Shown piece by piece: positions 849-56,303 of a DNA stretch of 64,000 bases. The translations under genes and the position numbers were made by a program. The DNA comes from Batrachochytrium dendrobatidis JAM81. Lineage: Eukaryota > Chytridiomycota > Chytridiomycetes > Rhizophydiales. The notes beneath the pieces were generated by a model, which searched no databases, had not been told where the DNA came from, and saw only the letters and a list, made by a program, of their open reading frames with translations. Each line of letters opens with the position of its first letter. The first letter of the stretch is position 1. Location: contig NW_006281114.1 in NCBI RefSeq assembly GCF_000203795.2, positions 248,001 to 312,000 of the forward strand, given 5' to 3'.

Positions 849-872
849 CTTTACGTGAATACGCGGTAAATG
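849..872. repeat. Solo end of the dispersed inverted-repeat element
   Basis: The segment CTTTACGTGAATACGCGGTAAA is the reverse complement of the element terminus seen at about a dozen places in the window. No second terminus is visible nearby, so this is an isolated end or a chance remnant. It lies a few bases beyond the CENP-C stop codon, in the 3' region of that gene. Confidence 0.4.
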
Positions 873-878
873 ATAGAA

Positions 879-3800
879 TCATGTCGACGATTGTAAAACT
901 TCTTTGCCGTGACAAAAGAACAATCGAGCTTCTCTATTTGCAATGTTTTCAATCTCGTACAAATTGCCTGTTGCATCAATGAGAACACAAAGTAGATAAA
1001 TAATCAAGAAAATTAAACCACACAACACTGGTAAATTAAACATGACAAATCAATCAAAACTACCTCGAGGAACAAAAAACTGTGAGCCATGTGAAATCAC
1101 AAACGAAGTCTCGTTAACCCTAACTTGAACCTGACCAGATAGCAAAAGAAAAATCTAATTCACAGCATAGTTTCAAGCAAATAGTGAGTCAAGATCGAGT
1201 GCACACTTTTCAAACCCCCACATGATACTTATTCCGCAATATAACTTGAGCTTACCATGGCGGAATCGCCGGAACCCCTGATGGGCTTCTTGGCTCCGCG
1301 CGGCAAAGCCAAAACTCCGGATGCCAAAAAATCGCCTTCGCTGAACACCTTTTGAAATCGATAGTCTCCTGCACCGACAGTACGGGGAACGATCATGCCA
1401 GGCGTAACTACAATATTATGCAACTCTTCTTGACCTGTACGATAGTTAAAAACACTCACTTCGGATGGAACGGCCTCGGTCTCTTCTTTTTTAATTTTTT
1501 CTGCTCTACTGCGTCGATGCGCAATAGTTTCATCATCTGATGGGATTCGAATAACCTCCTTGACAGACGTAGGAACACCCCCAAATCCTAAGTAATCATT
1601 AAAGTTGGTCAAAAATAAACTACCATTGAAAAACAATACCATACAACCTACCAGAAACACGACGGCCGTATATGACACGCTCATTTTTCCAGTATGCAAC
1701 CGGCTGAACCTTGGTACGCCGACTTCGTCGTGCACCATCCGTTTCAATCTCAACCTCTTCTCCTTCCTGTTTTATTGATGCAGAAACTACAGCAATGGAT
1801 TTTTTAATAGGTACAGATCTTTGCTTAACCACTAATTGACCTTGATTGGTTCGATGATCGAGTGAGTCTAGCTCTTGATGAACGGCTATATGTTTTTGTT
1901 TCGGGACAATACCCCGTGACTTTGGTGGTCGTCCTCTTGGATTTCGTGGAGGTAAACTCACTTCCAAATCCCTTGCTGTATCCGGTAATGGCTGTTCACG
2001 CATGTCAGATTCATTTACGTCAACCTGGCCATCTTCACCACTATCTTCGGCATGCTCAGGCTGAACAACAGAGCTGTTTCGTTGATTTTCTTCTTCTTCT
2101 TCTGGATCCAGTTCGCGAATAATCAGTCGCTGTGCACCTTTTTTGCGACCATTTCCCTGCGTTGGTGGTCGACGCTGCACATCAATTGGACTATGCGATG
2201 CTTGCGCATACTCGACTTGATCATATTCACGATCGCTAGGTTTCAACGAGTGTGATGAATGCGCTTGCTTGGTACTATGTTGCTTTTGAACCTTGGATAG
2301 TGATCCGGAAACGACGGGATTATCACGCACAATAGCAGAATCATGAAAATTCTCTGCTTCATTCTCGCCATCGCTTTCAGGATATGTATCAGGAATATTA
2401 TCGTCATAATATACATTGCTATTGGATTCGGTGTAGGTTGGCTTGTCATGTGCATTTTCAGACCAATTCTTTAATGGAGATTCACATGGTAGATCTTCAT
2501 CCTTTACTGACGAAAACTCGGCTACTTTGGTACTAGTACGAGCAGACGAGATAGTTTGTCGTCCTTTTTGCTGTGGACGTATCAAGTGTTGAACAGTTTG
2601 ACCTTGTCGAATATGTGCAGGAGATGCATACATAATTTCTCTACGACGCTCTACATGAGCATGAGGTTTTTTGTACTCGTCATGATAGTCGGGAGAAAAC
2701 TGCTGTTGTGGTTGCGCACTACGTTGTCGCTTCATTGGACGAGGGTTATCATGCATATCAGACTCATCCATCATGACTGCACGTCTCTGCACAAAAGGTT
2801 GTTGAAACTGATTTACATTTGTGTATTGGTGAGCTGACATACCGATTCTTCTTGAGCCAGTTTGTGGATTAATTTCTGCTCGTGGATCATCGGTATAGTA
2901 TATATTATCTTCGTCTTGCTCATTGTAATATTCTGCAGCAGGCGGAATATGACGACGAGCTGGTGGTCGAATAGCGCGAGAGTTTGCAACCAAATCTGCT
3001 TGATTATGCGTCAAGTATGGATCTAGCATATCTTGCTCATCCAAATATCCTCGTGTATCATTATTGGTCTGTCTACTTGTGTTTACTCTTACCATTCTCC
3101 CAGCTGCTGTTTCAGTCATAGCATGTGACAGACGCCCACGTGTCCGATACTCCATACTTTGATCATACTCGTCGTGATCATACTTGATAGGCTTACTGAC
3201 CAATGTAGGACCACCTTGCCTAAAGTGCTGTTGTGGTCTACGACTTGACATTGCTTTGGCTGAGCCTATAGACATGCTGGGTTTTACAAGCTGCTGTGGT
3301 GTAATGGATTTACGTGAAGTTGATACTAGTTGTCGACCATTTTGATACCTATATTCACGTCCATCCATTGACTGTCTGGGAGCACTGCGAGTTACATTTT
3401 GAGGATACATCGACTCTGAGTATACTACGCCTTGAGGAGTACGAGCAATTTTTGGTCGAGATACAAATTGAACCGGAGTGTGTGATATAGAACCTTGTTG
3501 TTGTGGTTGATCAGCCATCACAACATGCTTGACGGGTAGTGGTTTCTGAATAGACGTATCATATTGAGCCACTCCCTCATCATCCAATGGTCCATTTAAA
3601 GTAGTATCAAAAGAATCTACAGATTGCAGGAATCGGCCTGTCCGCTTATTAGCAGATGCACTGTGCTGGTTGACAGTCGGTGTAATGGGCGATTCCATTA
3701 CAAGTCGCTGATGCTGTCTTGATTCGCTGACTGAAACTTGTAAATGTTCTTGATGAATGTTTCTGTTTTTATCTGATGTAGGAGATTGGGGTTCCGCAAA

Positions 3801-4629
3801 AGATTCATCAAAAAAGCGACTGTCCTCTTCCAACTCCTGACTCTCGGGTTCTTATAAATGAATCAAACAAAACTGTGGTTATTCTACTTGGCCAAAATAA
3901 ACATGCCAATCACATCAAGGATTCGAAATGGCATTAAAAACAAAACCAAATCCGTCATATATCAAGACTGGGAATACCTTGGAGATCTTGGTTATATTGT
4001 CCGAGATGTTGATTGCCTGTGACGGTATAGATATTAAACCAGAATTAGTGTTGATAGATGCACGATAGTGTAAAATTGTATCCCAATGAATAGTTTTCCA
4101 TCAAAACGAGCCATAACAATACACAAGCTTTGCAGACCATTTTCAGCCAATGTCCGGATTGAAGAATAATGCACCGAATAGACTCGAGCTGTCCAGATTT
4201 GCAAGCATAATACGACAGCAATAACAAACAGCCAATACCTTGATTGTCCTTGACATTGGAAGGCGGTCTAGATGCAACATTGATGTTGTCTTCATCATCA
4301 CTTTGGAAAAAGTCGTCGACGTTATCCAGACCATCAGCGTCCTTGCGGACTTGCTTTGTTTGAGCCCATCCGGTTTTTCTAAAACATGGGACAGACATTG
4401 TAGACAATATTAGTTTATGTAGAATAGCCAAACTTGACAGGAACTGGAAGTCGGACACACTCACCTTCCTTTGACACCCAGTTCAAAGTGTTGGTTTGGC
4501 CGTCCTGTTGCAGCCAAAGGCTAATGACATCAAGCTGGTTAATTCATACTATTGGAATAAAAAGTAGAATAACATCAAACTCACCAGTCTCTGAGCACTG
4601 TTACTAGCAACAGCAGTGGATGCCATCAT
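879..4629 (-). CDS. MIF2: CENP-C / Mif2 inner-kinetochore protein
   Basis: Centromere protein that binds CENP-A nucleosomes and recruits the kinetochore. Eight exons keep frame: 4585-4629, 4465-4520, 4239-4378, 3978-4016, 1652-3850, 1256-1587, 1064-1154 and 879-967, giving 996 residues. The N terminus carries the Mif2_N signature (GRKTGWAQTKQ, then GLDNVDDFFQSDDED). The long middle is polar and low in complexity. An AT-hook (RGRPPKSRG) lies near residues 732-740 and the CENP-C motif (RRSRRTK..PVAYWKNERVIY) near 801-821. The C terminus is the cupin dimerisation domain (GQVQVRVNETSFVI, FFVPRG, YEIENIANREARLFF), encoded across three exons. The first of two adjacent ATGs (4629, 4626) is taken as the start. 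A solo element end lies 9 bp upstream of it. All three diagnostic parts are present in the right order, so identity is near certain. Confidence 0.93.
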
Positions 4630-4637
4630 AACTTGGG

Positions 4638-4665
4638 TTGCAGTCGTATTCACGTAAAACGAAAC
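4638..4665. repeat. Solo terminus of the dispersed element in the MIF2 5' region
   Basis: TTGCAGTCGTATTCACGTAA followed by AACGAAAC is one of the best matches to the element terminus. It begins 9 bp upstream of the MIF2 start codon and lies in the 155-bp gap between MIF2 and the end of LRGUK. No partner terminus is seen, so it may be a remnant of an excised or deleted copy. Confidence 0.5.
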
Positions 4666-4780
4666 ACTATTTTGCAGTGATTTCAACTCGTCAAGATTTG
4701 CTGTTTGAAAATTGACAATTTCAAATATTTTTAAACTTTTGAATTCATTCTAAAATTATCATTTTTAGAATAAATCTTCT

Positions 4781-7175
4781 TTATTCTTGCTCTTCTGCTT
4801 CAAAATCCTTCCAATACATTCCTAAACAATATTCTTTCAATTCCTTATACGCTCGTTCTAAATCATCATTCATCACTGTAAAGTCAAATAGTGTCGCATC
4901 ATGATCTGCTAGTGTATGTTTGGCTTTGGCTAACCATCCTTTGACTTCGTTTGGATCGCGTTCCTCTGGTGTTTCAAAATTGTTACTTGCATCAAGATCT
5001 GTTGTCTTGTTGGCCATTGATGGTGTGTCTAGTCTGGCTTGCAATCTCTCTTGAAGCACTTCCATACTCGGTGTCGTTACATAAATGAATCTGGGTTTTA
5101 GTTTGGATTTACGAAGTGCCAACAATCCCTAGAATTTGATTCAATCCATTATGTTGGTTAAAAATTAAAGTACTGTATTCATATAAACTATACTCGATCA
5201 GTCATATACTAATACTCACCTCCAATTCAAGATCCATGATGCATATTTTGCCTTCTTTCGTGACCTTGTCTACCGCATCCATACTCGTGCCATACATGTT
5301 ACCAAAAAGAACTACAATTTGAATAAACTCTCCTTTTTCGTTGAGTTTCTCCATCTCGCTTCTACTAACGAAATGATAATGCACTCCATTTTCTTCGCCT
5401 GGTCGTGGTCGACGTGTCGTGTGCGAGACAGTAAGTCCATAGATGTGTGGAAACTCTTTTAAAAGTCGACTGGTAAGTGTTCTAAATCATCTTGAATGAT
5501 TAGCAACCCAAATATATTGAACTTTTCAATATAAATCTGCATGTGGTACCTTTTCCCTGCTCCATTTGGCCCACATAGCACTAATGGTCGTAATCTTCTT
5601 GCGCGCATAAGATCTTCTCCTCTGATTCGAGCATAGCTCCAAGCCTGCTTTTTCTCCATATGTGCATGCTGAACAGCTACAATTACATTTTGTGGAGGAT
5701 CATACGTGTTCACTGCAGCCACCTTCTCTTCTGGGGACACAGGCAATGAGTCTAGTATGGTTAGTTTTTGTAATAAAAACACTGTTTTCAGTCGATAAGA
5801 TGGTGGATAATGCGTGGTGGTGTGCATTGGCACAACACGGTCTTTTGGATACCAGATCGCTGCAGGTAAATTCGTGAATGGGTTATTGCGCAATCGAACT
5901 TCATGCAAGCGGGGTAATGTGACCAAAATATAAACTTGATCAATATCTGCAATAAAGTTGCTTTCAATATCTAACGACCGTAGACTGGGATGATCTTTGA
6001 GTTCTTCTACCGATACTATTGCATTTTTACTGAGTTGTACTTGCTCAAGTTTAAGCAATGTTTCTATACCCTTTAATGTTGTAATTCGATTGTTTCTCTG
6101 TTGATTGCATCATTTTTAAAATATAATATTGCAATGAGTAATATAAAAGTATAATTTTTTCAACAAAACCAAGCATTTCAATTTAACCCTACTAGATCCA
6201 GCATTCGTAATGGAAGATGAACCAGTCCATCAATGCATGTAATACCATTGTTTGCCATACATAAATGCCGTAAATTCTTGCAATCGGACAGTCCTGTAAT
6301 ATCGCAAATCAGATTACTGTCTAGATTTAGATACGTTAAAAATCGATGCTGTGATAAATCCCGAATGGTTGTGATTTGATTTCTTGATAAATCCACCTGC
6401 TGCAAATTATGAGGCGGTGGATCAAATGCCAACACATCTGTGAGGCGATTGCTTGATAAATCTATCTGGACCAAGTATTGCATGCTTCCAAGAGCAGTAA
6501 TGTCTATCAATAAAGCAACATATTGTATTGGAAATGGTTTAGACCAGCTGTAAACTGTGTTTTGATATTAAATAGGCAGTTCGACTTTAATCGGATTTAT
6601 AATTACCCGTAATATTGTTTCCCTGAAGCTCAAGATTTTGAATGTACGGATATTCCCGAAGTGCTGAAATGTTGTTTAGTCCAGCATACTATGGTGTCAG
6701 GGTTAGCATATTTTGTACAGTACTCAAATTTATACTTTCAACTTATTCACTTGATATTTGATAAACTTGCCGGGATAGAGAGTTTTTGGTACACCAACTT
6801 GTGTCCAATAGGTGCTAGACCCATATGCGAAAGACCTTTTTTAAGCATATCAACAGGCAGTGAAAGCATTTCAATCCGCCGATAATACTCATCAACAAGC
6901 TCATGTGCCTCGCGCTGTTCTTTTGCCTCTGAAGATTCGTTGACTTCTTCAGCTGCCACTGCCGTAGCAATATTTAATTTTGAAGATGCAATGGCATTGA
7001 GAGCCAGCGTGTTGTCAACACTCTTACTTTTGTCCTTGGATAATTTGTGAGTTGAGCTTGATAAGAGGGTTTCTTTGGAACGACTTTTTCCTAATAAAGT
7101 GGCAGTCAAATGGCTATCTGGTCGAGTATTCTGTTCCGTTGCCAATGGTTGTAATGCTACTCCCGTATCCCCCAT
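4781..7175 (-). CDS. LRGUK: Leucine-rich repeat and guanylate kinase domain protein (LRGUK homologue)
   Basis: Exons read as about 6770-7175, 6607-6690, 6178-6508, 5550-6098, 5220-5469 and 4781-5128. After a polar N terminus come at least six leucine-rich repeats (for example NLQQVDLSRNQITTI, FLTYLNLDSNLICDI, NLRHLCMANNGITCI). A complete guanylate kinase domain follows: P-loop CGPNGAGKSRLLKEF, where the Ser-Arg codons are made by splicing, then GLTVSHTTRRPRPGEENGVHYHFVS, GNMYGTS, CIMDLELEG and FIYVTTPS. LRGUK is known in animals as a sperm-flagellum assembly protein; whether this copy has kinase activity is unknown. I chose ATG 7175 (MGDTGVALQP) because the open frame further upstream runs into a repeat element. 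The combination of domains is diagnostic. Confidence 0.88.
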
Positions 7176-7231
7176 ATCTGTCCTTTTGAACGCGTTGATA
7201 GACCTGAGATCAAGTAAACGAGTCGACGAAT

Positions 7232-7580
7232 TCAATTCTTCAATAAACACAAACTATAGGTTTGAATCTGTCCTTTCTCCACTTTTGGTAAACCATGCAT
7301 TGTACAATCACTAAATCATCCATTACAATCTAGATGTTGGGTTCGAGTGCTGTCAATACAGCTCTACCAACATATCTTGTACTTTTAGTTTCATACGTTT
7401 GCACTCTAGTTAATAAACCATGATTGCACGTTTCAGGAATGCAACTATACATGTCAATCACCCAATGTTTATTTTGTAGGAGAGTTGGAGATTGAAAGAA
7501 TAGAACGCAATGTGAACATTCGTTTAGTTTCTATTTAGCGGTTCATTTCACGCGAATAAGACTGTAGACGACAGGCAAGA
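7232..7580 (-). repeat. Truncated copy of the dispersed inverted-repeat element
   Basis: The stretch aligns by eye with the inner part and right half of the element at 43309-43687 (shared CATTGTACAATCA-like core, CATTACAATC(T/C)AGAT, GGAATGCAAC) and ends in a terminus-like CATTTCACGCGAATAAGACTGTAGAC. The left terminus is missing. It fills most of the 470 bp between LRGUK and the ceramide glucosyltransferase gene and may supply LRGUK 5' UTR or promoter sequence. No gene is seen in it. Confidence 0.6.
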
Positions 7581-7645
7581 TCTATTACTCAGCACATACC
7601 GTTCCATTGAGTAGGTGCTAAAGAAATAAATCATTGTTTATTGGC

Positions 7646-9300: not shown

Positions 9301-9380
9301 GCCATTCGCAGGATCCAGTTCAAGTAAAAATATTGAAATAAATAAAACAGATGATTAGTCAGCTGAAAATATATAACATA

Positions 9381-10003
9381 TTGCAGCCTATCCACGTAAA
9401 ATGAAGCGCTAAATAAGGGTATCAAAGCACATAATAAGCCGCCAGTCTCGTGAGATGATTGGTGTCAAATTTACTGGATAATACTGTGTCCTCGGAACTC
9501 CTTGACAAAGTTCACTGGTCTTTGTCCCCGATGCTTATTTTTGTAAAAGCTGGACAAACGTCCACATAACAGTCTCAGTACATCCCTGACAACCGTTCAA
9601 TTTCCGATGCTTCTACAAAACAAACATTGGATGATTGGGATGAAAACGACAGTTACGTTTCTGAACCATACAATCTGTGCTCTTGAACTAGAGCGCGAAC
9701 GTATCTGATATTTTAGAATACAACCGAGGAGTTTGATGACATCAAAATAGTTGAATCTGGCTTCAAACCTGGAAATTGTATAACGCATGGTCATGCCAAA
9801 AGAGGAGAAAGGAGTAGTCTGTTCAAGACTAGTTTAATTATGAGCATCATATGACGAATGCTGTGTTTCAAAGAATTGAGAATGCTCAAGTCTATGTGTA
9901 ATAGAAAAATAGCATTTAACCACTGCTTATTCCAAAACAAAATGCAGACAGCCATTGAAGATAATACAAAAAAGGGATCCATTCTACGTAAACAAGGCTG
10001 TAA
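9381..10003. repeat. Full-length dispersed element, long version (about 620 bp)
   Basis: Begins TTGCAGCCTATCCACGTAAA followed by ATGAAGC and ends in a segment whose reverse complement is TTTACAGCCTTGTTTACGTA, so both termini match the family. Inside are blocks shared with other copies: CTTGAACTAGAGCGCGAACG (also near 51453 and, decayed, 25999), TTCAAGACTAGTTTAATTATG, and CCACTGCTTATTCCAAA. It encodes no protein I can support. It lies immediately 5' of the ceramide glucosyltransferase gene. Confidence 0.65.
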
Positions 10004-12380
10004 ACGAGTACAACTGAAGTAGGAAAAGCACATGAAGCAAGAATGACGAGACAGCAAGGGCGGGGATAGAAATATAGGAATGGTTTTTGAGTGCAGATGG
10101 CATACTCCAATAACAGCAGTGTTATCTACAGCAAATTAAAGTTGTGTAGAGGATTGAAATAAAGCCAGACAGCATGCACTAAAAGCTGGATGTATTGCGG
10201 CCGACAGACAACATGAGTTGGATGTACAATGGTCACCAATATCCAAAACCTCAAGCAACCAGTCGCCACAGCCTATAATATTATCCGTATCCGTTCAAGT
10301 CTCAATAGTGACAGAAACTTCAAAGTTGTGATTGCCTTGATTTAGAATATACATGAAATAGGATGCAGCTGTATGCAATCTAATGCAAGTGTACCAAGAA
10401 TCCACATTGGTACAGCAGAATAGCAAGACGTCATCAATGATTGTAGAAATGTATGTTGCAGTGACCCGGTTGCTCATGTAAACTATTCCCAGCAAATCAG
10501 TCGACTATTCCATGGTAGAACACATATAGCCAGTAGACGGTACTGCCATGAACAAATCCAACACAGAAGCTTCAAGTAGTTGTACATACGTGATAATAGG
10601 ACCCGATGTCAAAAAAAACACCATAGCAAACCAAGAGAGCATGCAGAATCCAAGACAAATATAGTAGAGATACTGGAAAATGGAAGTCACTACCATTTCT
10701 ATAATATCAACAGTGTCCATTTGCCAGTGAGCTGTAGTAATTATCCGGAGAACAAACGAAGTAGGAAACAAGGTAAAACACGTAATCAACTATTATTGGC
10801 AGTTTGACGATTGCTCTTGGCTTGAATCTGGTCATTGCTGAACTGACTTTTGTTTCCATACATTTATTTGGTGTAACCAATTCTTGTATAAACTGTCGAG
10901 CATACTTTGCATTTGGTTTGTATCAATAAAACTGCTGATCACAACACATGGCACTTTTATATTCATTCTACTAAATCAGTAATCGTCAATGTTCCCGCTT
11001 GCTCAATCCAAAAAGTAACGAGTGCGGCTAATCTTGGTATTTGAGCAGGTTTAAATTGTATTAAATACTCTTGATATGTCTTAGTCTATATATCTGAATA
11101 GAGAGTACAGCTAAAATAGGCTTTAAAGTGTTCATTTTGCAGCACCATTCACGAGAATGAAATACTTGTATTGATCTCTGGTTTTGCTTTGAAATAAACA
11201 GTGGTTAAACACTCGTTATTTTTCCTACTACAAACTGACACCTGATTCTTCAATAAACACAGCATCCATCATATGATACAAACTATACTTTTGAACATGC
11301 TCTCTCCCTTCTTTTTCATAATTATACATTGCACGATCATCAAGTTTAAAACCGAATTCATCCATTGTAGTTTTGATATTCGGATCAACTTTCTGATCCT
11401 CAAACTCATTCTTGTTGAAACCTAGTCCCAAATGCATTCGCGTTCTAGTTCAAGAAACCAAAGATGGCAGTCAGGAATGCAGCTGTTGTTTTCATTCAAT
11501 CACTAGGATACCAGTCAACTAAAGAGTTTATGGCAAATGTTGTTCAGTAAATTGCCACCAGCCATTCCGTAAGACTGGCTGTTTATTATAGACACCCTTG
11601 TTTAGTGTTTCACTTTGCGTGAATATAGCGGCGATACAACCCATAATGGCTTTGCATTCCATATGCTTTATCAACGCCGGCTAATACTACTCACTATTAA
11701 CACGCTATTTAGCCAAAGAACATTGAGCGTGGTTGAACAGCATTGGGAACTAACATTTAACAATTGTGTGGCATCAAACGTCATATTTGTCATGTGTGCT
11801 CGTAGCCAACTTTGTTTCTTGAATAGCCGCCAAGCAGAAATTTTAAAACCACACATTGTTTTTGCTGGAGTAATCCAATCATCTGCCATAATCTGCATAT
11901 GTATGAATACTACTCAAGATCAATCTGTAAAAAGACTGCTTTTTGTGGTGGTTATTTTAATTATGGTCTGTTTTTTAAATCCTTCACTTGCATAACCTAT
12001 ACTATAGTTTAGATCTGATTCATTTTCAAATGAAATGGCACAACAGCTATTGTCTGACATTTCTTGAATATACTATTCATGATTCACCATCAGAATCAAT
12101 AATTATGCATGTTGATACTTTTCTTTTGATTCCTATGGCTGCAATGGGGGTTTGCTAGTTTATACAGTTTTTTAGACCTTTTACCAGCTAAACTTCAAAA
12201 GTGGAGCTTGATTGAATTTGAAAAACTATAATTGTTTAAATCGCGAGCCAGACTTGCATTGTCTGTTTCCCAATATAATAGCAGCACTCGATAGTAAACC
12301 AAGCAATTCTTAACCAATAACGGTATAACCAAATACATCAAGATACGGACTTCAATCAGTGGCAAATACAGCGAAAGCAA
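10004..12380 (-). other. Gene-poor block with scattered hydrophobic minus-strand frames; possible decayed or multi-exon membrane-protein gene
   Basis: Several short minus-strand frames are strongly hydrophobic. One near 12195-12380 contains YLVIPLLVKNCLVYYRVLLL. One opens with an ATG at 12060 (MSDNSCCAISFENESDLNYS). One near 11718-11898 contains DDWITPAKTMCGFKISAW. One opens with an ATG at 10859 (METKVSSAMTRFKPRAIVKL). One near 10505-10700 contains TSIFQYLYYICLGFCMLSWF. One near 9916-10110 contains PRPCCLVILASCAFPTSVVL. They could be exons of one multipass protein, with the element at 11137-11637 in an intron, or remains of a dead gene. I could not join them into a convincing frame and recognise no family. 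This is a low-confidence flag, not a gene call. Confidence 0.25.
11137..11637. repeat. Full-length dispersed element (about 500 bp)
   Basis: Starts TTGCAGCACCATTCACGAGA and ends at CACTTTGCGTGAATATAGCG, whose reverse complement matches the family terminus. Inner blocks shared with other copies include CTTGTATTGATCT (also 21837-22004), TTTGAAATAAACAGTGGTTAA, ACATTGCACGATCATCAA, and GACTGGCTGTTTATTATA followed by a CACCCTT block (also 38388-38872 and 47252-47559). There is no coding capacity. Confidence 0.7.
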
Positions 12381-21836: not shown

Positions 21837-22004
21837 GTTACAGCATCATTCACGTAACATGGAACACTTGTATTGATCTTTTAGTGATTTTGCTTTGGAA
21901 TAAACAATGGTTGAGCATTTGCTATTTTGCATAATAGACTGACACTCGATTCTTTAATCAACACATCATACAATGAGATATTAGTCATGTAAACGTGAAT
22001 GTAT
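21837..22004. repeat. Truncated dispersed element
   Basis: Opens with a clear left terminus (GTTACAGCATCATTCACGTA then ACATGGAAC) followed by CACTTGTATTGATCTTTTAG and TGGAATAAACAATGGTTGAG, shared with 11137-11637 and 43309-43687. It then breaks off after CACTCGATTCTTTAATCAA. It begins 8 bp after the cysteinyl-tRNA synthetase stop codon and sits about 200 bp upstream of the BIO3-BIO1 start. Confidence 0.6.
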
Positions 22005-25592: not shown

Positions 25593-25994
25593 TCTATAAA
25601 ACAGAGATTAGCATTCAAGCGTATGAATTGAGACTTCAAGTGTTTGATCAAGTATCCTCTGAGTTTCAATCAAGCATCAATGCACAATCAATACAGGATA
25701 TCCTGTCTGTGTTGATGGATGGCACATGTGGATGGCATCAGATTGGAATGCATGGCTGATGGACTTACGTGAGTGGATTCGTGGTGAAGGCAAAGTTGAC
25801 AGCAAATCATATTTGATTGAATATACTCACGTGATCCATATTCTTGATCACGTGAATATGACTAGTCAAGTGTAGATTTCGAGTATTCAAGCCATGATAA
25901 TTCACTAAATGTATTAAAGTATTGATTTCTAAACTCATTAAAGCCTAGTTACTCTCCTGATGAGTATCATGTATAGTTTTATTCCTGATATGCT

Positions 25995-26262
25995 AAACTA
26001 GAACTAGAACGCGAACATATCAAGTTTACAGGTTTGAGAATAGTCGAATCCAATATCCAACTTCAAAGTTGTGACAGTGCACTATATGACTATTTGAAAA
26101 AGAAGAATTTGAATTCAAAACTAGTTTGATTTTATAAGATTAACTATTGAATTGAGAATGAAATTTCTGACATGAAAATGCGGTGAATTTAGTCAATGTT
26201 TTAAAGACAAAATCATTGAAATAAATTCAGAAAAGTTTTCACTTTACGGCCGTAAATCTACA
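25995..26262. repeat. Decayed copy of the dispersed element upstream of BIO2
   Basis: AACTAGAACTAGAACGCGAA and the following CCAACTTCAAAGTTGTGA, CAAAACTAGTTTGATTTTAT and GAATTGAGAATG resemble the inner part of the elements at 9381-10003 and 51286-51765. The right end TTTTCACTTTACGGCCGTAA looks like a terminus with a short internal deletion and stops 5 bp before the BIO2 start codon. The rest of the 25593-26268 gap, probably the divergent promoter for eL32 and BIO2, shows nothing else I can name. Confidence 0.45.
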
Positions 26263-38209: not shown

Positions 38210-38387
38210 ACTTGAATTCTTGAAACGAGTCTTGTGTAGATGAAACTGAACAGTATTCACATGACATATAATGAGGTTGTTCATGTGAATGAAACTCCGT
38301 AATTGATCCCTTGAACCCTACGATGCATGAAAATGGCTGTAAACCGGTGTATAAATTGCTAGATGGGAACAATCTAAAAGGCTTGTA

Positions 38388-38872
38388 TTACACCGTGTTC
38401 ACGTAAAATGAAACAGTTGTATTATCCTGCAGTCATTGCCTCGAAATAAGCAATAGTCGGATATTTGTTGCGCTTTCCTACTAGAAATCGGCTTGAATAG
38501 ACACCCAGTTCTTCCAAATGCAACGACTGTTATACAATATAATCAAACTAGTTTTGAACAGAGATTATCCTCTTTGGTATAGCCATATATTGTACGATCG
38601 ACAAGTTTAACATCAGATACTGGCTTGACTGGTGCCAAACAAGCTCTGTAAACTCGTTTTAAAATATCCGATACATGATAGTTTAAGAAACCAAAGATTG
38701 CAGGTCTTGGGAATGCAATTATAAATGTCAATCATCAAAAGACTAATGAATTTAATGAGTTCATATGGCACAATATTGCCTAATAAATGTGGTGTGAATG
38801 ATTATTTCGTGAGATTGTTTATTATGCACTGACACCCTTATTTATATTCCACTTACGTAAATAGGATTGCGA
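38388..38872. repeat. Full-length dispersed element (about 485 bp)
   Basis: Left terminus ATTACACCGTGTTCACGTAA followed by AATGAAAC; right terminus CCACTTACGTAAATAGGATT. Inner blocks shared with other copies: CCTCGAAATAAGCAATAGTC, CATATATTGTACGATCGACA, AAATGTGGTGTGAAT and TGTTTATTATGCACTGACAC. It lies about 140 bp upstream of the Ser-rich gene at 39010. The short stretch between MBF1 and the element shows nothing further. Confidence 0.7.
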
Positions 38873-43305: not shown

Positions 43306-43308
43306 GAT

Positions 43309-43687
43309 CGCTGCCGTACTCGCATAACATGGAACACTTGTATTTATCTTGCATTGGCTTCCACTATTTTGTTTCGGAATAAACAATGATTAAATCTGCG
43401 CTTTTCTATTGAAGATTGACACTCGATTCTTTGAAACCAGCGTTTGTCATATGATGCACGATCAAATCACCACTATTGGCATAGCCATACATTGTGCAAT
43501 CATCAAACCCATTCATTACAATCCAGATATTAGGTTTGACTACTCTCAATAGTGCTTTATACAAACTCATTTGCTGTATTTTAAAAACTCGGATACAATT
43601 TAATTCAAGAAAACAGAGATTGCACTTTTGGAAATGCAACGGCTGTTTCCATGCCAGTCTTGCATTTTACGTGAATACAGCTGTAAG
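43309..43687. repeat. Full-length dispersed element (about 380 bp)
   Basis: Starts CGCTGCCGTACTCGCATAAC then ATGGAAC and ends TTTTACGTGAATACAGCTGT, with both termini matching the family. Inner blocks CTTGTATTTATCT, TTTCGGAATAAACAATGATT, CACTCGATTCTTTGAAACC, ACATTGTGCAATCATCAAAC and CAGAGATTGCACTTTTGG recur in other copies. It begins 3 bp after the LARP stop codon and ends about 150 bp before WSS1. Confidence 0.75.
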
Positions 43688-45186: not shown

Positions 45187-45523
45187 TGTACAGCCATATT
45201 TACGTAAAATGAAACAAACAAGGATGCCAAAATGTATAATAAATTACCAGTCTCATGATAATCTACACCGCATTTAGTGGGAAAGCGTCAACTGTTTGGC
45301 AAACAGCAATGTTGCGAGGTTAAAACTTCATACTGTTCATTTTTAAACTGCTGAAAATTGCTTTAACAATACATTTGTATTGTGTACGATTCCAAAAACT
45401 AAAAATGCCTACTCTCGATTCAACTTGTAGTAGAAACCACGATCAATACTCGACTATTATTTATTCCAAGCAGTCATTACAAGATAGATGCAAGTAATCC
45501 ATTTCATGTAAATACGAAGTAAC
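45187..45523. repeat. Full-length dispersed element (about 335 bp)
   Basis: Left terminus GTACAGCCATATTTACGTAA then AATGAAAC; right end ATTTCATGTAAATACGAAGT. Shared blocks: TACCAGTCTCATGATAATC, CACCGCATTTAGTGGGAAAG and TATTTATTCCAAGCAGTCAT. It fills the tail-to-tail gap between WSS1 and FHIT. Confidence 0.7.
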
Positions 45524-45548
45524 AATTTTTTATTTCAAGCGAATACAA

Positions 45549-46752: not shown

Positions 46753-47778
46753 CTAGTTTGAAGGAGATGCCATCTTGAATGAAAAATTGATTGCGATTGC
46801 AAGGAACACTACGGTAATCATGACAAGCGATCCAACCATGTCTTCGAAACTGACTCCCTTTTCTATAAACATCCATTTACATTTCAGGTTTAGTATTCCG
46901 CATTAGTTTCAAATATAACAACTGGGCCGGTTATGGCAGTTATGATACCAATTTACTGAGCATAGATGTGCTGCATATTATAATTTACATACCTTTCTTT
47001 TGCAAACGATCGGCACGAATATTAAATTGAATTAATGAATAAAACATAAATCCAACAGATATAATAGCAAATATCATGCCAGCAATTTGGCCGAGTTTGT
47101 TGGAAAAATTGAGCAGTCCAATCGCCACAGCTCCAAGAATCAAACAGACTATAGTTTTGCATACAGATACAAGTTGAAAACAATTAGCCTCGCATACTAG
47201 TAAGCATTACAAGGGATAAGTGTATGATTGGTGTGTTGTAATATTACAGCCGTATTCGCGTAAAATGGAAATAAGGGAGTCGATGCATAATAAACAGCCA
47301 GTATCATGATAATTCACACCACATTTACTGGGAAAGTATCAATTGGACTCTTTAGCCCACTGGAGTTTTTCCTGATGATTGTCATGAAAGCAACGGTATG
47401 CATATGCAATGGTTGTTTGAAAGGAGGATTGAGAATGTATTGAAGTAGTCAATTCCTGGTAGAAAAGCGTAATGAATAGTTAACCATTGCCTACTCCAAA
47501 GCAGTTATTACAAAATAAATGCACAAATGGGTTTGATTTCATGTGAATACGATTGTAAATACATCATGACCATCAGCTTTATACATCATTGCTCATAACA
47601 AATGTTCAAATAGATCTACTGATGTAGCAATGGAACCAAGAAATAACGTACGCTGCAACCAAGACAGAAATGTGCGCTCATTGGCAAAAAAAACTTTTGG
47701 ATTAGGAGGAATGCCGTCTGCAGGCTGTTGTCTGGCTGCTCCTTGAATGTTCCATCTACTTACAAAAAAGTCTAGCAT
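46753..47778 (-). CDS. VTC1: Vtc1-like subunit of the vacuolar polyphosphate polymerase/transporter complex
   Basis: Small DUF202 membrane protein; in yeast Vtc1 is the membrane scaffold of the complex that makes polyphosphate. Exons 47652-47778, 46993-47148 and 46753-46862 give 130 residues in frame, close to yeast Vtc1 in length. PKVFFANERTFLSWLQ is spliced (GTACGT donor, TATAG acceptor) to LCLILGAVAIGLLNFSNKLG. Two more hydrophobic segments follow (GMIFAIISVGFMFYSLIQF, then VGSLVMITVVFLAIAINFSF), making three in all. There is no SPX or catalytic domain, as expected for Vtc1. The N terminus (MLDFFVSRWNIQGAARQQ) is taken from the only suitable ATG; it could extend upstream. Intron 1 (47149-47651, 503 bp) contains a whole repeat element, and a near-identical inverted copy lies upstream. 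Confidence 0.85.
47252..47559 (+). repeat. Dispersed element, left arm of inverted pair, inside VTC1 intron 1
   Basis: 308 bp that match 48007-48314 in reverse complement with only about four mismatches by eye. Left end GTATTCGCGTAAAATGGAAA preceded by TTACAGCC; right end TTTGATTTCATGTGAATACG followed by ATTGTAA, so the two ends of this one copy are themselves inverted repeats. It lies wholly within VTC1 intron 1. No coding capacity. Confidence 0.9.
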
Positions 47779-48006
47779 GCTGATGAAACTATACAAATGA
47801 TCAGTTAAAAGTAGCCAGGTTCCAACAAAGTTGTTTGTTTTTGGGTGAAACTCGACTGGGAACAAAACGTGCGATTAAAGCCAATTTCATTGGTTGGCTA
47901 AAACGTAATCATCGCTGTGCATGAGCACTTTTAGGGTCATCAAGTCCGACATTTTATATTCAGGGACCATATCTGTCACGCAGTTATCTTGGAATCCAGC
48001 ATTCGT

Positions 48007-48314
48007 TTTACAATCCTATTCACATGAAATCAAACCCATTTGTGCATTTATTTTGTAATCACTGCTTTGGAGTAGGCAATGGTTAACTATTCATTACGCT
48101 TTTCTACCAGGAATTGACTGCCTCAATACATTCTCAATCCTCCTTTCAAACAACCATTGCATATGCATACCGTTGCTTTCATGACAATCATCAGGAAAAA
48201 CTCCAGTGGGCTAAAGAGTCCAATTGATACTTTCCCAGTAAATGTGGTGTGAATTATCATGATACTGGCTGTTTATTATGCATCGACTCCCTTATTTCCA
48301 TTTTACGCGAATAC
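48007..48314 (-). repeat. Dispersed element, right arm of inverted pair, upstream of VTC1
   Basis: 308 bp, reverse complement of 47252-47559 at about 99% identity by eye; a few differences fall near TATTGA(A/G)G(T/C)AGTC and CAGT(T/G)ATTAC. It sits between the VTC1 5' end and the 3' end of the PPR-like gene. The 447 bp between the arms hold VTC1 exon 1 and its presumed promoter. Confidence 0.9.
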
Positions 48315-48400
48315 AGTTAAGATGAGTAGATGATCATGACTTGTAAATTATACAGACCAATGTCATGAGTCTCGCAACTAGCTCTTTTTAGCTACGAGAC

Positions 48401-50905
48401 TTACTCGAATCTATTCTTTTTGGTGAATTGTGCAGCGTTAGTACTATTATTGATAGAATTCCGATTGAGTGTACTTTTACTGAAGCTATGCGATCGTGAC
48501 AAAGATACATTGTTTGCAGTGCTACTATCAACATCTTCTCTCCGTTGAACCTTGTATCCCATTTCACTGCGTCTAAAACTGCCTTTGACGTGTTCCGCTG
48601 GCATATCCAGCTTCAAGTCATCCAGGGGAAGATGCCTCTTGTACAGTTCTGGAGAAATAAGTTTACGAATGTTTGTGTCTGGTTTGACTTTAAGCGTCTT
48701 GGTGAGCCCTAATCCCATATCAATGTGTCGCATGATGAGTTGTGCCTTTACATTTTGTGCTGAAGTACCAAGTTTTCCATTCGTATACTCTTCCAATGCA
48801 ATTTTGGAAAACAGTAATCCTCTGCGTAGAAAAACAACATCGTCTGAATCGGAGTTAGATGTAGAAGCCTTTTGATTAAGCTGAAAACCGTCATCGCCCG
48901 TATATTCATTGTCAGAATCTGACGTGGCTGTTTTGTCAGTCTTTTTTAATCTGGCCTCCACTTTTCGTTCTAATCGAGAAATCGTATTATCGACCAATAT
49001 CTCTCGATTTTTAATCACAATCTGACCAGCCTCTGACCATGATTTGCAAGTAATAGTCGTACCAAGATGGTTGAGCAGTTCACGAAAACCAAACAGTGGC
49101 TGTTGTAAGTGAGATGATGCCTCACTAGAACTGGGTTGGGATCGAGCATCCATGTTTGTATCTTCTATTGATGATTTAGCAGTTCTGATTTTAATTCCTT
49201 CTTCATAAAGTGTTCGAGACCGATCAAGCCATTTTTCTTTGTCCTCCTCGCGAGACATGACAGCCAAAGAGGTTGCTCGTAATCCAATCTGATATTTATA
49301 CTTGGATGGTTTTTCGGTTGCCATACTCCAGACCTGATCAAACTGTTTAGCAGTCAAGAGCATTGTGGTAATAGCATGCATGGCCACATCATCTGCATCC
49401 ATATGCAACTCTTCAGTAAAGATCTTGTACCAGTGCTGACCAAGTGCTGGATATCGCAAACGTGATGCAAGGTGCATCAAGAGAGTGAATGTTTGCTGAG
49501 TAAGCTCAATGTGGCTGCTTGGTACTCGTCCTTGAGATTTACCACTAGGTTTAGAAAACCGGGACTCTACAATGTTATGTCGACGGTTGTAAGGCTCTAG
49601 ATGAGATTTAGGAAATCCAAAATGAAGATTCACGACATCCAATGCACTTTCAGCATGCGAAGCGTCATCTGATCGAATACATAAAAGAAGATACTTTGCT
49701 ATCAATGGGCCATCAAATTTGACAGGGACAATATCAGGATGATCATCAGGAGTGAGTTTTGCCGTTTCTGCAGCGTGCTGAACAGCTTTATTCCAAATAG
49801 CAATGCCATTCGCGTATCCTACAGATTTACCAATCTCTGCACATATGCCAATCATAACAGTATATGTCTTTACATCTGGCACAACAATGATTTTTGGGGA
49901 TGGAAGTTCTTCAAAGGGATTGCTAAGCATGCCAGATGCTACAGCTGCTTGGCTACGCTTAAGGGCTTTAGCCGATACAGCAGCAGCAGCAGCAAATCCA
50001 ACAAGTCGATTTGTAAGTGTAGCCTTGTTAGAGTAGCGAATATGCGAGTATATCATTTCTGCCATTTCCCATCCACCAACAGAGCCACATGCAGCACAAA
50101 CGCTCAGCATGGCATTGGTTTGGATGAGATTTGGAACGAGCTGCCTCCAAACATCCAGCGCAGTGTCAAACAATTTCTTTTTGGAATGAATGTTGAATTT
50201 AGGCAACATCTTGGCCATGCAATAGATTGCATTCAAAATACTGGTATATGATTGTGGAGCCAATGTTCGGTTTTTTGCGTTCAACTAAAGATCAAGTCCA
50301 GTTGCCGATTGTTATTTTCAGAAAGACAAAAACGTGCATTAGCTAGTATTTTTATCATAAAATACAAATAAAAGCTCAAGCATGAGAATACAAAAAATAA
50401 TGTTGGGTTTGAAAATATAATATATAAATGCATCACGAATCTATCCACTTACATCTTTAAAGATTCGAATAACCATGGCATAGTGACGTTTTTTGATCAA
50501 GGCATTGAAAAAAGCTGCATGAACATCATCGTTTCCTGCACCAGTATGTCGACGTAAAAGCATATATGCCTCATCAACCTTGTCTTTGTTTACAAGCTGA
50601 GCAAGTTTTTCTGTCAAAAGAAATGGGTCAGAAAACCAGAGTACTCGTTCATTTGAATTCGATCCATGATTAGCAGAAGTCTTGGCAGTCTCGAGGTTTT
50701 TTACAGAGCTTTTGGGCTCTTGAGATACAAGCAAGCTAGATGTTTGAGTTGATTGTTGATCATGTTTAGATTGACGAGTATTTTCGCTAGGTAGTTGGCG
50801 TAGAGGTTTGTAATGACCCTTTATGTCTGCCTTTCCTAATAGAGACTGCAGTCTGTCATAGTTTGTGTATGCCCGTTTACATGCAACAAAGGTAGACCTA
50901 AACAT
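48401..50905 (-). CDS. Pentatricopeptide-repeat-like protein, probably mitochondrial
   Basis: Two exons: about 50455-50905 and 48401-50287, joined at IRIFKD/LNAKNRTLAPQSYTS. The chosen start gives MFRSTFVACKRAYTNYDRLQ, a basic, acid-free N terminus consistent with mitochondrial import. Degenerate PPR-like helical pairs are visible: LVNKDKVDEAYMLLRRHTGA, VHAAFFNALIKKRHYAMVIR, NAMLSVCAACGSVGGWEMAE, VKTYTVMIGICAEIGKSVGY and TFTLLMHLASRLRYPALGQH. A predicted helical, charged C-terminal third follows (IVDNTISRLERKVEARLKK) and ends in a Ser/Asn-rich tail. Likely a mitochondrial RNA-metabolism factor; the particular RNA or complex is unknown. About 780 residues. Confidence 0.65.
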
Positions 50906-51285
50906 GCTGATACAACAATCCAAGTAATGTCTGGCTAATGCAAACGATCAAAAAACTTTAACCCAATAAATTTAAAGTTGGAGTAAACATCGAATTAAAA
51001 AAGATTTGCAGTGGTTGAGTAGCCGAATGAGTATTTTTGAAGATTGAGCAATTCTCGACTAGTTCAACCAACGGAACCCACTCGTCTTGTATCATGACAG
51101 ACTGTTTACCTATTCATCAATAGTTGTCAGGATGACATGAAAGCATCAATGCTATGGCTGAATGAATTCTTTGGCACTCATGATTGTTTCAATAGAAATA
51201 AAACAGTATGCAATCAGTGTAGCAATACTATTATCTGGTTTCATGGCAAGACAAGTTGATATCCATTTGAAAATGTCTTCATATA

Positions 51286-51765
51286 TAATGGACCGCTAAA
51301 TAAGGATGTCAGTGTATAATAAACTGCCAGTCTCATATCATGATTTCCAGTTTACTGGTCAACATTTGCCATAAACTCTTTAGTTGGCTGGTATTCCAGT
51401 AATTTTAATGGAAACAACAGTTGCATTCCTGAAATATGCAGTTATCGTTTCTTGAACTAGAGCGCGAATGTATCCGAGACTAGGTTACAACAAATGAGTT
51501 GTATTGACAGCATCAGAACAGTCGGATCCAAATATAGTCCCAAACTTGGCGATTGTATATGCATGGCTATGCAAAAAAAACAATCTCTGTTCAAAGCTGC
51601 AGTTTGATTGTGTCATATGATGGACGCTGTATTTATTGAAGAACAGACAATGTCTATTCAAGCCAATTTCTAATAGGAAAGCGCAAGATTTAGCCATTGT
51701 TTATTGCAAAGCAATGGCTGCAAGATAATACAAGTACTCCATCCTGCATGAATACAGCTGTAAAT
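51286..51765. repeat. Dispersed element with decayed left end (about 480 bp)
   Basis: Right terminus ATCCTGCATGAATACAGCTG followed by TAAATC matches the family; the left side (CCGCTAAATAAGGATGTCAG) matches the elements at 9381 and 38388 just inside their ends but the outermost terminus is gone. Shared blocks: CTTGAACTAGAGCGCGAATG, AACAATCTCTGTTCAAAGC, CCATTGTTTATTGCAAAGCA. It sits in the gap between the PPR-like gene and the cyclin; the 350 bp to its left hold nothing recognisable. Confidence 0.6.
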
Positions 51766-52372
51766 CAATCTAAATAGTAGAAAAAATAGAATGTGACTTT
51801 ACTGATGTTGCTACAGGGATTGAAGTAGGCCCAGTTTTGAAATTAACCCAGTTGACAATGGGCTTGCGGTTCGGCAAGGATCACGGAACGTGACTCAGTG
51901 CGCGTCATGTTCGGAATAATAACTATGACTAATATACAACTTGACAAGCAGCGAGTTGCAGAGGATGTTTTGGTGTAGTACAGATTAGTTCTGCTATTTG
52001 TAATTATGACTTGTCTGAGTGGTTACAGTTATACCTCCGCCAACTCACAAGCATATCCGTATACAGGCGACCAAGCCGATAAGCTAGAACCGCCCCCTTG
52101 ATATATTCTTGATACACTAACAGAATGACGCGACACTGACACAGTCTGTGCTGAATGACATTGAGTTGTCTAACTCACTTGCATGACATCAGGCTTTTAG
52201 TGACATTGCTTTACAGATAAATTTTGGCAGCTTGGATTGCTACATAGATTTTGTTATTCTTTAACCCTTTGTTTGAATTCAAAATCCAAGCTATCAAATA
52301 GACTTTGATATAGCTGAGTGCATATTAGGTGAATTGATTTTCTCCCAACTTTCAAATACCATTGTCTGCCTC
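51766..52372. other. Upstream region of the cyclin gene, no gene recognised
   Basis: About 600 bp with no supported coding frame. A stretch near 52010-52090 (TGTCTGAGTGGTTACAG) recalls a tRNA A box but has no matching B box or cloverleaf. It probably holds the promoter and 5' UTR of the Pcl-type cyclin. Confidence 0.4.
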
Positions 52373-53874
52373 ATGACTACCACATCGGTTCTTACTCGCT
52401 CCATTTCAAATCCTACTTCACCATCGGGTGTAGCTTACTCACCACTATCCATCAATTCAATGGTGCATCCGCATAATATCCATAGCCCATCGTTTGATCA
52501 CCCCGATTATGATCCTATAAGGAATTGCTGGAAAGTATACAGGCGAGCCTATTTAAACAGGAAAAGAGATGGTAGCACATCTGCATGTCAAGAGGTCGAA
52601 ATTTCCAGCCACAACCAACATCCGTACCTTTATTCTCCTTATCTTAGCAGCACTAGAGCCATTTCAGTAGTTGGACTTAAAGAGAACAGCAAACAGCATT
52701 GTCTAAATGCACCACCAATAGCAGTAGCTTCACCAAGCGTGACTAGAACTCACCATGCAAAGGAATATTGTCAACGCACACAATCATACACGGCAGAACC
52801 ATCTTCAAATACAAGAAATGGCTCTACGTTAAATGATGTAATACCAAGTGTTTCTAGCCTATCCAAATCACAGGAGCACTGTGTTCCTGTTGTGCCAAAA
52901 CCAAAACCTGCTGTTCAGATCATATGTACTCCACCTGTGACCCACTCTAATACCACTACAGGCAGATTATCATTGACTGCAGCACACGATCAGCTTGCAC
53001 TGCTTGAATACTTTATTGGTGAGTTACTTTGCTATACACTCGAGTTTGAGACTTTTAAAAGAATGTCAAACAGCGCATCCCTTTACTGACTCTACTTTTT
53101 GCTAACATGATTGCTTTCTGATCTGCTTCTTGCTCACTTGATTTGACTTGGGTCGATATCGAAACTCCAAATTCGTGTCATTGTGATGCACTGTTGTGTC
53201 ATATTGACTGGGCTGCTTGTCTATTCCACCCTGGATGCTGACGCCTACTCGATACTGTATAAACTATTACTAAATTGATAGATCTCGCAGTGCAGATGAT
53301 TTGCACTTTGAATACAGTTGATATGGCAGTTCAACCCACTGCTCCAACTCGGTTGTTTGTGATTGAAGTTCTACGACGATGTCCTGCAAGCTTTTCAACC
53401 ACTGCAATTGCTTTGCTGTATCTGCATCGTCTGATTCATGAACTGCAACTGCCATGTGTACTATCCAACCACTGCAATGAAAGCCGTAACTCCAAGGGAT
53501 CAAACGTGGCTGTTCTTGACAACTCTAACACAAAATACACTAATGTATCTGAGACATCCATAACAGTACTTTCAGCAGAAGTTGAGCCAGCAAATAGCAA
53601 ACACGCAAATATTCCGCGGAAATCAAGATGCGGCCGAAGGGCATTTGTAGCTGCACTCCTTACAGCACATAAATACCTCGAAGATTTTTCGCTTGGAACA
53701 AAGGAATGGGCAAGCAGATTGTCCCTGAAAGCAAAAGACCTTCATGCCTCAGAAACCACGCTATTGAATCATATTCACCACAACTTGGTCATACAAGTAG
53801 GAGAGTACGACGTTTGGGTAAAAACCATTGTAGCTAGTAGCAAATCTAGTTCAAATTCATCAGCATCATGCTGA
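52373..53874 (+). CDS. Pcl/Pho80-type cyclin
   Basis: Cyclin of the family that activates Pho85-like CDKs. The first exon begins MTTTSVLTRSISNPTSPSGV and is Ser/Thr/Pro-rich and disordered, with YDPIRNCWKVYRRAYLNRKR. An intron from 53021 to about 53280 joins YFI to DLAVQMICTLNTVDM. The cyclin box follows: PTRLFVIEVLRRCPASFSTT, AIALLYLHRLIHELQLP, a polar insertion of about 60 residues, then RRAFVAALLTAHKYLEDFSL, GTKEWASRLSLKAKDLHASE and TLLNHIHHNLVIQVGEYDVW. The conserved Arg-Ala-Phe-hydrophobic and Lys-x-x-x-Asp pattern fits Pcl1/2/9-like cyclins. The start is the first ATG; the frame upstream has only a TTG. Confidence 0.82.
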
Positions 53875-54119
53875 GTTCATCTCGTATGTTCATACACGTA
53901 TTAGATGACCTTGCAGTACTTTTACTGCTTTAATTGCCATTTATATTGATTCATTTTCATTTTTTGTCTGGTTTATATCTACTGATGGGCTACTTTTATC
54001 AATTATAACCTGTCGATTATTTTTTACAAATAAAAATATTCAACATAGCCCATAGCACATGCATAATCATGAATCCATTGTTGAGTTGTTTATTGGTGGT
54101 TGTACAACTGCATTGGTGT

Positions 54120-55873
54120 TCAACGACCAGTATAGACTGGTGTTCGTTTCTCTCTGAATGCTGCAAGACCTATGTAATCAACACGATCCACCGCATCCAA
54201 ATCAGTCATCATATGTAACATCCAATCACATCAAATATATCCATCCAATCACATCAAATTGTCAATCGACATTACCTTCCAATCGGTCCTGCGTCGGAAT
54301 CACTTGGGCGTAGCAAGTTTGTTCAAATGCCAGACCTGATGCAAGATCCAGTTGTGATCCATGATGAACTGCCAACTTGGCCATACGCATTGCAACTGGT
54401 CCATTAGGAATCATTGTACGCGCAACCTCGAGTGCTTTAGAGTATGCTGATTCATTCACTGTATAGTTGACAATACCTGGACCATCCATGCATCTATTCA
54501 TTAGTATCTATCAATATGCATCAATATCTATCAATATGCACCATTGTGCATTTGTTGAACCCATATACCATGCCAAAATGTTTTCAATCACAAACACTAC
54601 AATAACAATCCAACCATTTGTAATCCATCTACATCACTTACCATAATCAAACGCTTCACTCGATGTCAAGACTCGACTCGTAAAAATAAGCTCTTTGGCA
54701 CGAGAAACTCCAATCAAACGACAAAGTCGCTGAGTACCACCAGCACTATGACATGCAGTCAATATTCCAACATTCAGCTCCAATTACAACTCAAACATTG
54801 ATACTGCTTTGATAATCATAACTTGGACAGTTTGATTTGACAAGTGTATTAATCTATCGTTGAAAATAACGTTACCAATATGCTACTTACCCAGGAATAA
54901 TTGCCAGTTTCGTTTCTGGAAGCCCAACCTTGGCTTTTTGTCCACCGACACGCAGATCGGTGCATAGAGCCAGTTCAAGACCACCTCCTAATGCAAATCC
55001 ATCAACCACTGCAATCGTTGGCATTGGTAACGACTAATGTATTGATGCATGACCAACACCACACAATACACCTGTTAGATTGGCCATTACATTCTTCATA
55101 TTTGTAATAAACTCAACATCACCAACCTCTAGTTCAGAAAAGGCTGCACGAAGTGAGTTTACAAATGCTGCCACTTCAGACGGTTGCATCTGAGCTCGCT
55201 CCTACAATAGATTGCACATTGTCATGCAGTGAATACGCTGACAATCAAATGGTTTGGTTGTAACATGACATGCTGATGATGCAGTGATACGAGTTGGATG
55301 GATTGACAGTTCATCTTATTGATTATGCGTTGCATAACACTTTGACTCTACCTTTAGATCGGCTCCTGCACAAAACACTCCATCCACTGCACTCTTGACA
55401 ATCACCACACGAGCCTGACTAGATTGATAATCCAGCACATTGCAAATCATCAATTAGTCGAATAGTGTCAGAATCAATACAGCCGTTTAGTCCATGTTCA
55501 GTCACATACTCGTTAAAACGTAGATCATTGATGGATTGACGAAACTGTGACAAGAGAGTGCGACCTAAAGCATTCTTGGCTGCAGGACGATCCAATGTCA
55601 GGACAAAGATGCCTAGTAAACATGTATGCGTAGATGCATACGTAGATGCATGCGTAGTTGCAACCATTGCATTATAACAGATTAGAGTCATGGCATGACA
55701 CTATACATCAACATATTGACTTTTTGGTTGCATTTACCTTTGTCGTTGCCGTGCAAAGCTTCTACATTGCATTCTCGGGCAGTTGACAACAAGCGAGAAA
55801 AGCCAAGCGATTGTCCTGTTGGTAGAAACGAGTGTTTGCATGATCGCAGTCTGATGGCAGTCAAAAGTTTCAT
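54120..55873 (-). CDS. AUH: Methylglutaconyl-CoA hydratase-like enoyl-CoA hydratase (mitochondrial)
   Basis: Leucine-catabolism-type crotonase. First exon [20 protein letters not shown] with SRLLSTARE is a mitochondrial presequence. Then [41 protein letters not shown] (oxyanion-hole Gly), [18 protein letters not shown], and [20 protein letters not shown] with [11 protein letters not shown]; both catalytic Glu positions are present. [40 protein letters not shown] and a C-terminal [10 protein letters not shown] follow. About six introns, several with local microrepeats. MIRNV at 55909 is an alternative upstream start. The crotonase fold and catalysis are certain; choice of AUH over other mitochondrial hydratases rests on overall similarity. 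Confidence 0.83.
55624..55658. repeat. Palindromic microrepeat in AUH intron 1
   Basis: GTATGCGTAGATGCATACGT then AGATGCATGCGTAG: alternating purine-pyrimidine direct and inverted repeats of a GCGTAGATGCAT unit. Lies in an intron; probably a local slippage expansion. Confidence 0.5.
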
Positions 55874-55991
55874 GCTGTTTGCAGTGTATTCATGTACGTT
55901 GCGAATCATATTATCAGATTGGAATGAATATCAACTGTCAAAATCACTTGAATTCAACTGTTTTTTGGGTGTAAAAATCACTCGTTCATCA

Positions 55992-56303
55992 CATTGTATT
56001 CACGCAAAATAAAACACTAAAACTGGAAATTACTAATACAAATGGCAGATGAAACTACCGATTATAATATATGCACTGTGCAGTCTGATCAATGATTAAT
56101 TGGAATGACCGGATCACATCTGTTGGATGGAACAATCGTACAAATAAACAGAAATAAAATAGATGATTCATGTATGAGCAAAAAGATATAGTTTAATCAG
56201 TAGAACGATGTGCAGCAGTTTGTTCTCGAATGCAACGAGTATTCAATCATGATTTATTCCAAGCAGTGCCATTGCAAGATAAATACAAATCAGATACAGC
56301 GTC
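55992..56303. repeat. Diverged dispersed element upstream of INTS11
   Basis: Left end CATTGTATTCACGCAAAATA then AAAC resembles the family terminus; inside, ATGATTTATTCCAAGCAGTG and TTGCAAGATAAATACAAATC match the right side of other copies. The right terminus (CAGATACAGCGTCAG) is weak. It lies in the divergent gap between AUH and INTS11, ending 170 bp before INTS11. Confidence 0.5.

Follow-up and report, generated by a model that had tools for sequence, protein, structure and literature searches.

Stowaway elements are plant miniature inverted-repeat transposable elements (MITEs) derived from Tc1/mariner transposons, most of which are shorter than the copies of the family described here from the chytrid Batrachochytrium dendrobatidis JAM81. 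This family was analysed in a stretch of 64,000 bases (contig NW_006281114.1, positions 248,001 to 312,000; 'the window'), and searches were extended to 23.49 Mb of the genome in 33 contigs. It resembles Stowaway in being short, in having inverted ends and thousands of copies, in occupying the gaps between genes and in its likely TA-type target; it differs in that its interior still derives from a transposase gene, that its copies are old and that near-identity is confined to neighbours in the sample. With the IS630-Tc1-mariner superfamily (PF13358, NF033545) it shares a DDE_3 relic inside its inverted ends, as well as ends compatible with TA insertion, although all of the transposases found here are broken and partial. 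We put the probability that the family consists of very abundant, old, shortened, non-autonomous copies of an IS630-Tc1-mariner transposon at roughly 83%.

The available part of the report on a new assembly of strain JEL423 gives 9,409 unclassified repeat elements (4.45 Mb, 18.15%), and the commonest DNA transposons named in it are Mutator, Cacta and Maverick, not Tc1/mariner (PMC11797018). Unclassified copies average 12,958 (4.23 Mb) in strains other than CLFT044, according to the accessible portion of a second report (PMC12204190), while the accessible text of a third states that B. dendrobatidis has fewer functional class II families than its sister species and no signature of repeat-induced point mutation (PMC9926174). 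Like these unclassified repeats the present family is very abundant, representing around 7% of the DNA examined, and it probably sits among them. No description of it was found in the literature searched, most subscription journals, preprints and supplements lying outside its reach.

The window was scanned for the outer and inner motifs of the ends at up to two mismatches, with 100 shuffles each. The outer motif, TTACARYCGTATTC, has 10 matches where 1.80 are expected, and the inner motif, ACGTAAAATGRAA, has 16 where 5.58 are expected; none of the 100 shuffles reached either count. A trained 31-base matrix of the ends (score of at least 14) identifies 15 ends, against none in one shuffled window, and a family profile of 522 positions, built from 34 short elements, detects 18 fragments from around 14 copies, totalling 4404 bp or 6.9% of the window, with none in the reversed window used as a control. 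All 14 positions at which the original prediction had placed a dispersed repeat (12 stretches and two solo ends) match the profile, the matrix or both. The predicted location in gene gaps holds, as open reading frames (ORFs) of at least 100 aa take up 48% of the window and yet include just 49 of the 4404 element bases. An Rfam scan of the window gave no match at the gathering threshold.

Further copies are plentiful: a 20-base terminal core, allowing up to three mismatches, matches the genome 1959 times (960 and 999 on the two strands), whereas the same pattern read backwards matches twice. Scaling from the window suggests a genome total of about 4500 copies, a crude estimate because the window holds only six core matches for its approximately 14 copies. 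Element sequence makes up 7.4% of the 153 kb formed by the outermost 900 bases of both flanks of 85 loci, a share near the 6.9% of the window, although this sample adjoins other copies and includes a few overlapping loci, and is therefore not random. Alignment of 114 ends, selected via the core, shows sharp conservation beginning at TTACAGCC and running inwards for around 31 bases, so that the termini are conserved as predicted and the inverted ends can be written as TTACAGCCGTATTCACGTAAAATGGAACACT. Three copies on contig C1, 98-99% identical to one another, share limits at exactly TTACAG...CTGTAA, beyond which their flanks are unrelated. The 68 copies traced from end to end are 199-923 bp long, with 51 of them between 300 and 600 bp. 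Being short, bounded by inverted ends, high in copy number and devoid of intact coding capacity, the elements have the attributes of MITEs; profile, end matrix and genome count all support the MITE-like reading originally proposed.

The superfamily can be named, on sequence evidence, as IS630-Tc1-mariner, from transposase relics lying inside elements with the same ends. The DDE_3 model (PF13358) has 24 matches in the genome, and three of these stretches (L091-L093) were fetched. In L091 the match is an open fragment, P0001, situated between family ends at 933 and 1672; a full-length transposase element with these termini had been sought, and although no intact one was seen, this fragment of a DDE_3-type transposase stands between them. 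P0001 scores 35 bits and a second fragment, P0002 from L093, 36.5 bits, the cut-off being 28.6, and P0001 also matches the IS630 transposase model (NF033545) with an E value of 2.7e-8, which is below that model's full-length cut-off. There are 39 residues between the second and third acidic residues of P0001; the region after the first D can be read from L093 only, the first D itself lying outside the open frame. A search of the PDB with P0001 produced one irrelevant match (E 0.96).

When P0001 and a relic fragment from L093 were compared by tblastn with 93 loci and the window, 38 rows were obtained from 24 sources, namely 23 of the 93 loci and the window, and a reversed-sequence control gave none. 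L091-L093 had been preselected by their DDE_3 match and two rows are the queries' own loci; relic homology thus extends to 20 further loci and the window. Many of the rows are weak (1e-5 to 0.03), but several fall inside short elements, including one at 43358-43501 on the minus strand of the window (E 0.004). Such matches indicate that the interiors, which had been termed non-coding, are remnants of a shortened transposase gene, rather than unrelated DNA; the statement that none of the elements codes for protein holds for today's copies, but not for their origin. Across the genome there are at least 148 relic matches (150 of 207 candidates were scored), 127 of them with an internal stop. If the locus of the query itself is set aside, none of the 20 remaining stop-free relic matches spans the query in one open frame, although an intact gene that is interrupted by introns, or that differs too much from the query, could escape this search. 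As no intact source was seen, the family looks immobile today.

Several features of these relics weigh against the assignment. The right end of L091 lacks its outer eight bases, and P0001 spans the second half of DDE_3 only. The third acidic residue of P0001 is D, whereas DDE_3 relatives usually have E at this position; other relics read NPVEN or NLAEN in the tblastn rows. A wide protein search with P0001 yielded one relative among two candidates, a hypothetical protein of B. dendrobatidis that is 81% identical over 55% of the query, such that no tree supports the placing; this search takes proteins of 0.55-1.75 times the query length, and full-length transposases would escape it.

Many of the best relic matches are situated no further than about 30 kb from the end of a contig, show around 80% identity to P0001 and mostly have a single TGA inside (C15:1696797, C8:553474, C9:552416, C2:10587, C21:9744, C7:637699, C26:1558751 and C12:6494 are examples); these look like part of a repeated subtelomeric unit. 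The open frame listed for the match at C9:296381-296536 has a length of 5790 aa and may be a very long gene or an artefact of reading beside the relic.

A second pattern concerns the relationships between individual copies. When three elements were searched genome-wide, near-identical copies occurred only nearby among the matches listed: one element has three copies inside a 27-kb stretch of C1, the second a pair on C27 separated by 1.9 kb and the third a pair on C1 separated by 21 kb, with the next-ranked matches being 76%, 68% and 77% identical, respectively. A systematic comparison of 82 merged segments (320 kb), with minimum thresholds of 88% identity and 100 bp, gave 21 near-identity rows. 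Nine were dropped for belonging to a duplicated block on C6 and C26 that also includes DNA outside the elements, along with one remote row between C1 and C15 (111 bp, 90% identity). The 11 pairs that are left, 308-582 bp in length, each have both members on one contig and separated by no more than 26.1 kb, although of 4690 comparable pairs just 61 are as close as 30 kb; the probability of finding 11 of 11 within 30 kb would be 1.8e-21 for independent pairs, but these are independent only in part. Seven of the pairs are inverted and four direct. At distances of up to 1.3 kb there are six inverted pairs and one direct, as against 13 of each among comparable neighbours (p of about 0.07), an excess that is suggestive only. 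One inverted pair lies in the window (47244-47558 and 48007-48314; 98.7% identical over 308 bp), with the outermost eight bases of one end diverged; it falls outside the comparable set, which takes fragments of at least 200 bp only.

Loci L095-L102 were excluded from the count, having been fetched because lists displayed them as pairs. They include inverted pairs at L099 (99.5%), L100 (99.4%) and L096/L097 (99.3%), and also an element 99.6% identical between L101 and L102 on C26 that runs counter to the distance rule, the two copies being 88 kb apart. L101 and L102 also match exactly in their flanks, throughout the 570 bp fetched, and L095 and L098 do so on the left side; both cases are read as larger duplications. 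Pieces of 0.6-1.9 kb containing element parts are repeated in both orientations on two contigs at 97-99% identity (C6:672106-678538 and C26:138908-141383; L012, L022, L023 and L026).

The boundaries of the identical tracts bear on how this similarity arose. In five of the 11 pairs (L016, L061, L051, L045/L049 and L086) the identical tract stops inside both elements, and beyond it the sequence, although diverged, is still recognisable as belonging to the family; in L062/L063 it stops inside the element in one member only, and the L021 pair is truncated where the locus ends. Relocation of entire elements does not, on its own, leave tracts that end inside both copies; gene conversion from a neighbouring copy does, and is therefore what these tracts point to. 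It is unlikely, though the most serious of the rival explanations, that local transposition of recent date instead produced the near-identical neighbours. DNA transposons are known to hop locally, and in L067, L068 and L094, and likewise in the L099 pair, identity extends over the full element while the flanks are unrelated, as such hopping would give; among the 11 pairs, L067/L068 and L039/L041 are identical as far as the ends and count against conversion as the general cause. Against local transposition stand the five pairs with internal boundaries and L069/L070, in which an island of around 18 bases contains many differences and both copies lack a good right end, and no intact transposase is seen among the relic matches. 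Conversion hence remains the preferred reading, with local transposition possible for the end-to-end pairs; both processes could act.

Two of these loci have unusual structures. L039 and L041 (C27:759557-760138 and 761426-762005; 99.7% identical) have nine bases in common past the right end and none past the left, a pattern with no simple explanation in exact transposition or in conversion restricted to the element. L096 (C27:1116020-1116620) tracks its inverted neighbour L097 for 429 bp, then passes into B-end sequence of reversed orientation, resembling a joint formed when inverted elements recombine. Tentatively, and at somewhat less than even odds, we suggest that immobile MITEs persist as a short-range recombination network, in which near-identity is confined to neighbours within around 30 kb and inverted neighbours are homogenised by conversion, probably inverting the DNA between them; similarity between copies would then tell of recombination, not of the time of jumping.

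It is improbable that the family is not a MITE at all, and that its members are instead the independent ruins of full-length transposons, each shortened alone. The spread of lengths among the end-to-end copies and the identity of long fragments to the model consensus (median 78%, 108 hits) would both be expected from such decay. However, many copies are alike in their short structure over the whole length, and independent deletions would not give this. When the best 40 of 517 candidates were scored with the 451-bp element of L069, 30 of 38 other relatives covered 399 or more of its bases, with identities of 71-78%, and 71 of 77 elements align to the window copy at 51267-51763 (itself counted), which serves as the reference and is read from the B end, on the 51267 side, to the A end. 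These shared short structures fit with amplification of deleted forms, as anticipated for a MITE. L069 and L015 have in common with L091, whose element is longer and bears the transposase relic, the first 213-325 bases of that element. By their median identity of 78% to the consensus the copies are old, and they are in part ruined, so that the term 'MITE' best fits those forms that recur across the genome at the same short length.

The ends, and the unrelated flanks beyond them, are compatible with insertion in the form T-TA-CAG...CTG-TA-A. This arrangement is read most naturally as a TA duplicated inside TTAA, although the TTA could also belong to the element. A test of 68 end pairs for duplications 2-10 bases long, at 11 offsets, brought out none, apart from a weak two-base excess at the outer edge (12 against 7.0). 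Here, too, some results count against the proposed origin. TA is kept at both expected places in just 31 of 68 end pairs, as expected from decay, but equally from a wrong boundary, and the duplication is unproved, no empty site having emerged from either joined flanks or excised loci. The joined flanks of up to 74 elements gave two junction-spanning rows against all fetched loci, both of them matches of a locus to itself, and comparison of 68 excised loci with the profile revealed no empty site. A piggyBac-type duplication of TTAA on both sides was also considered and rejected, as the ends read TTAC...GTAA and the flanks of near-identical copies are unrelated. That the family is a MITE of another superfamily, such as one of this TTAA-duplicating type or one with a long duplication, and the L091 relic a chance insertion, is very improbable: the outer bases, TTA...TAA, do look like a TTAA target, and a TA duplication is unproved, but duplication of TTAA would leave TTAA on both sides, no duplication exceeds the weak excess above and transposase homology recurs inside many separate elements.

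Between the inverted ends of these IS630-Tc1-mariner derivatives lies a transposase gene that is broken and in part deleted, and that runs from the B end to the A end. We infer that the transposase of a longer relative cut elements at these ends and inserted them at TA within TTAA, and that deleted forms multiplied long ago by this means. Judging by the tract boundaries, neighbours may now be copied mainly by gene conversion, with part of one overwriting the other.

Four copies in the window are full-span: 9380-10003 (plus strand; 624 bp, E 1.2e-103 with the profile, both ends by matrix), 11138-11634 (minus; E 9.2e-100), 38387-38870 (minus; E 3.7e-94) and the reference (plus; E 1.5e-113). The copy at 43308-43686 (minus; E 9e-72), in which the transposase match lies, also retains both ends. 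Partial copies are found at 749-863 (minus; one end, E 1.3e-13), 7221-7567 (minus; model positions 2-406, E 1.9e-39, end by matrix at 7567) and 25916-26248 (plus; 97-507, E 1.8e-21), with a solo A end at 4638-4719 (minus; E 2.8e-5, matrix score 41.8). Short forms include 45188-45523 (plus; positions 2-100 and 376-515, as two profile fragments) and 47244-47558 (plus; 315 bp, positions 1-190 and 381-521), whose near-identical inverted neighbour extends over 48007-48322 (minus; by profile and pairwise comparison). The former had been predicted as 47252-47559, which is an element, but its outer ends lie at 47244 and 47558 and it lacks model positions 191-380. Two other predicted stretches belong to the family but are less complete than supposed: that at 21837 is a half element with an A end only (21838-21975, or 21839-21975 when checked against the prediction; minus; E 1.2e-20, positions 361-521), while that at 55992 is a ruined copy (55988-56289; plus) of which just an end at 55988 (matrix score 23.5) and a weak inner piece at 56216-56289 (E 1.3e-6) are left.

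These results assign an origin to around 7% of the DNA examined, and probably also to much of the repeat content that has been left unclassified in reports on B. dendrobatidis. If the pattern among neighbours is indeed one of gene conversion, then the similarity between copies would be unusable for dating transposition in this genome, and the inverted pairs would be candidates for small inversions.

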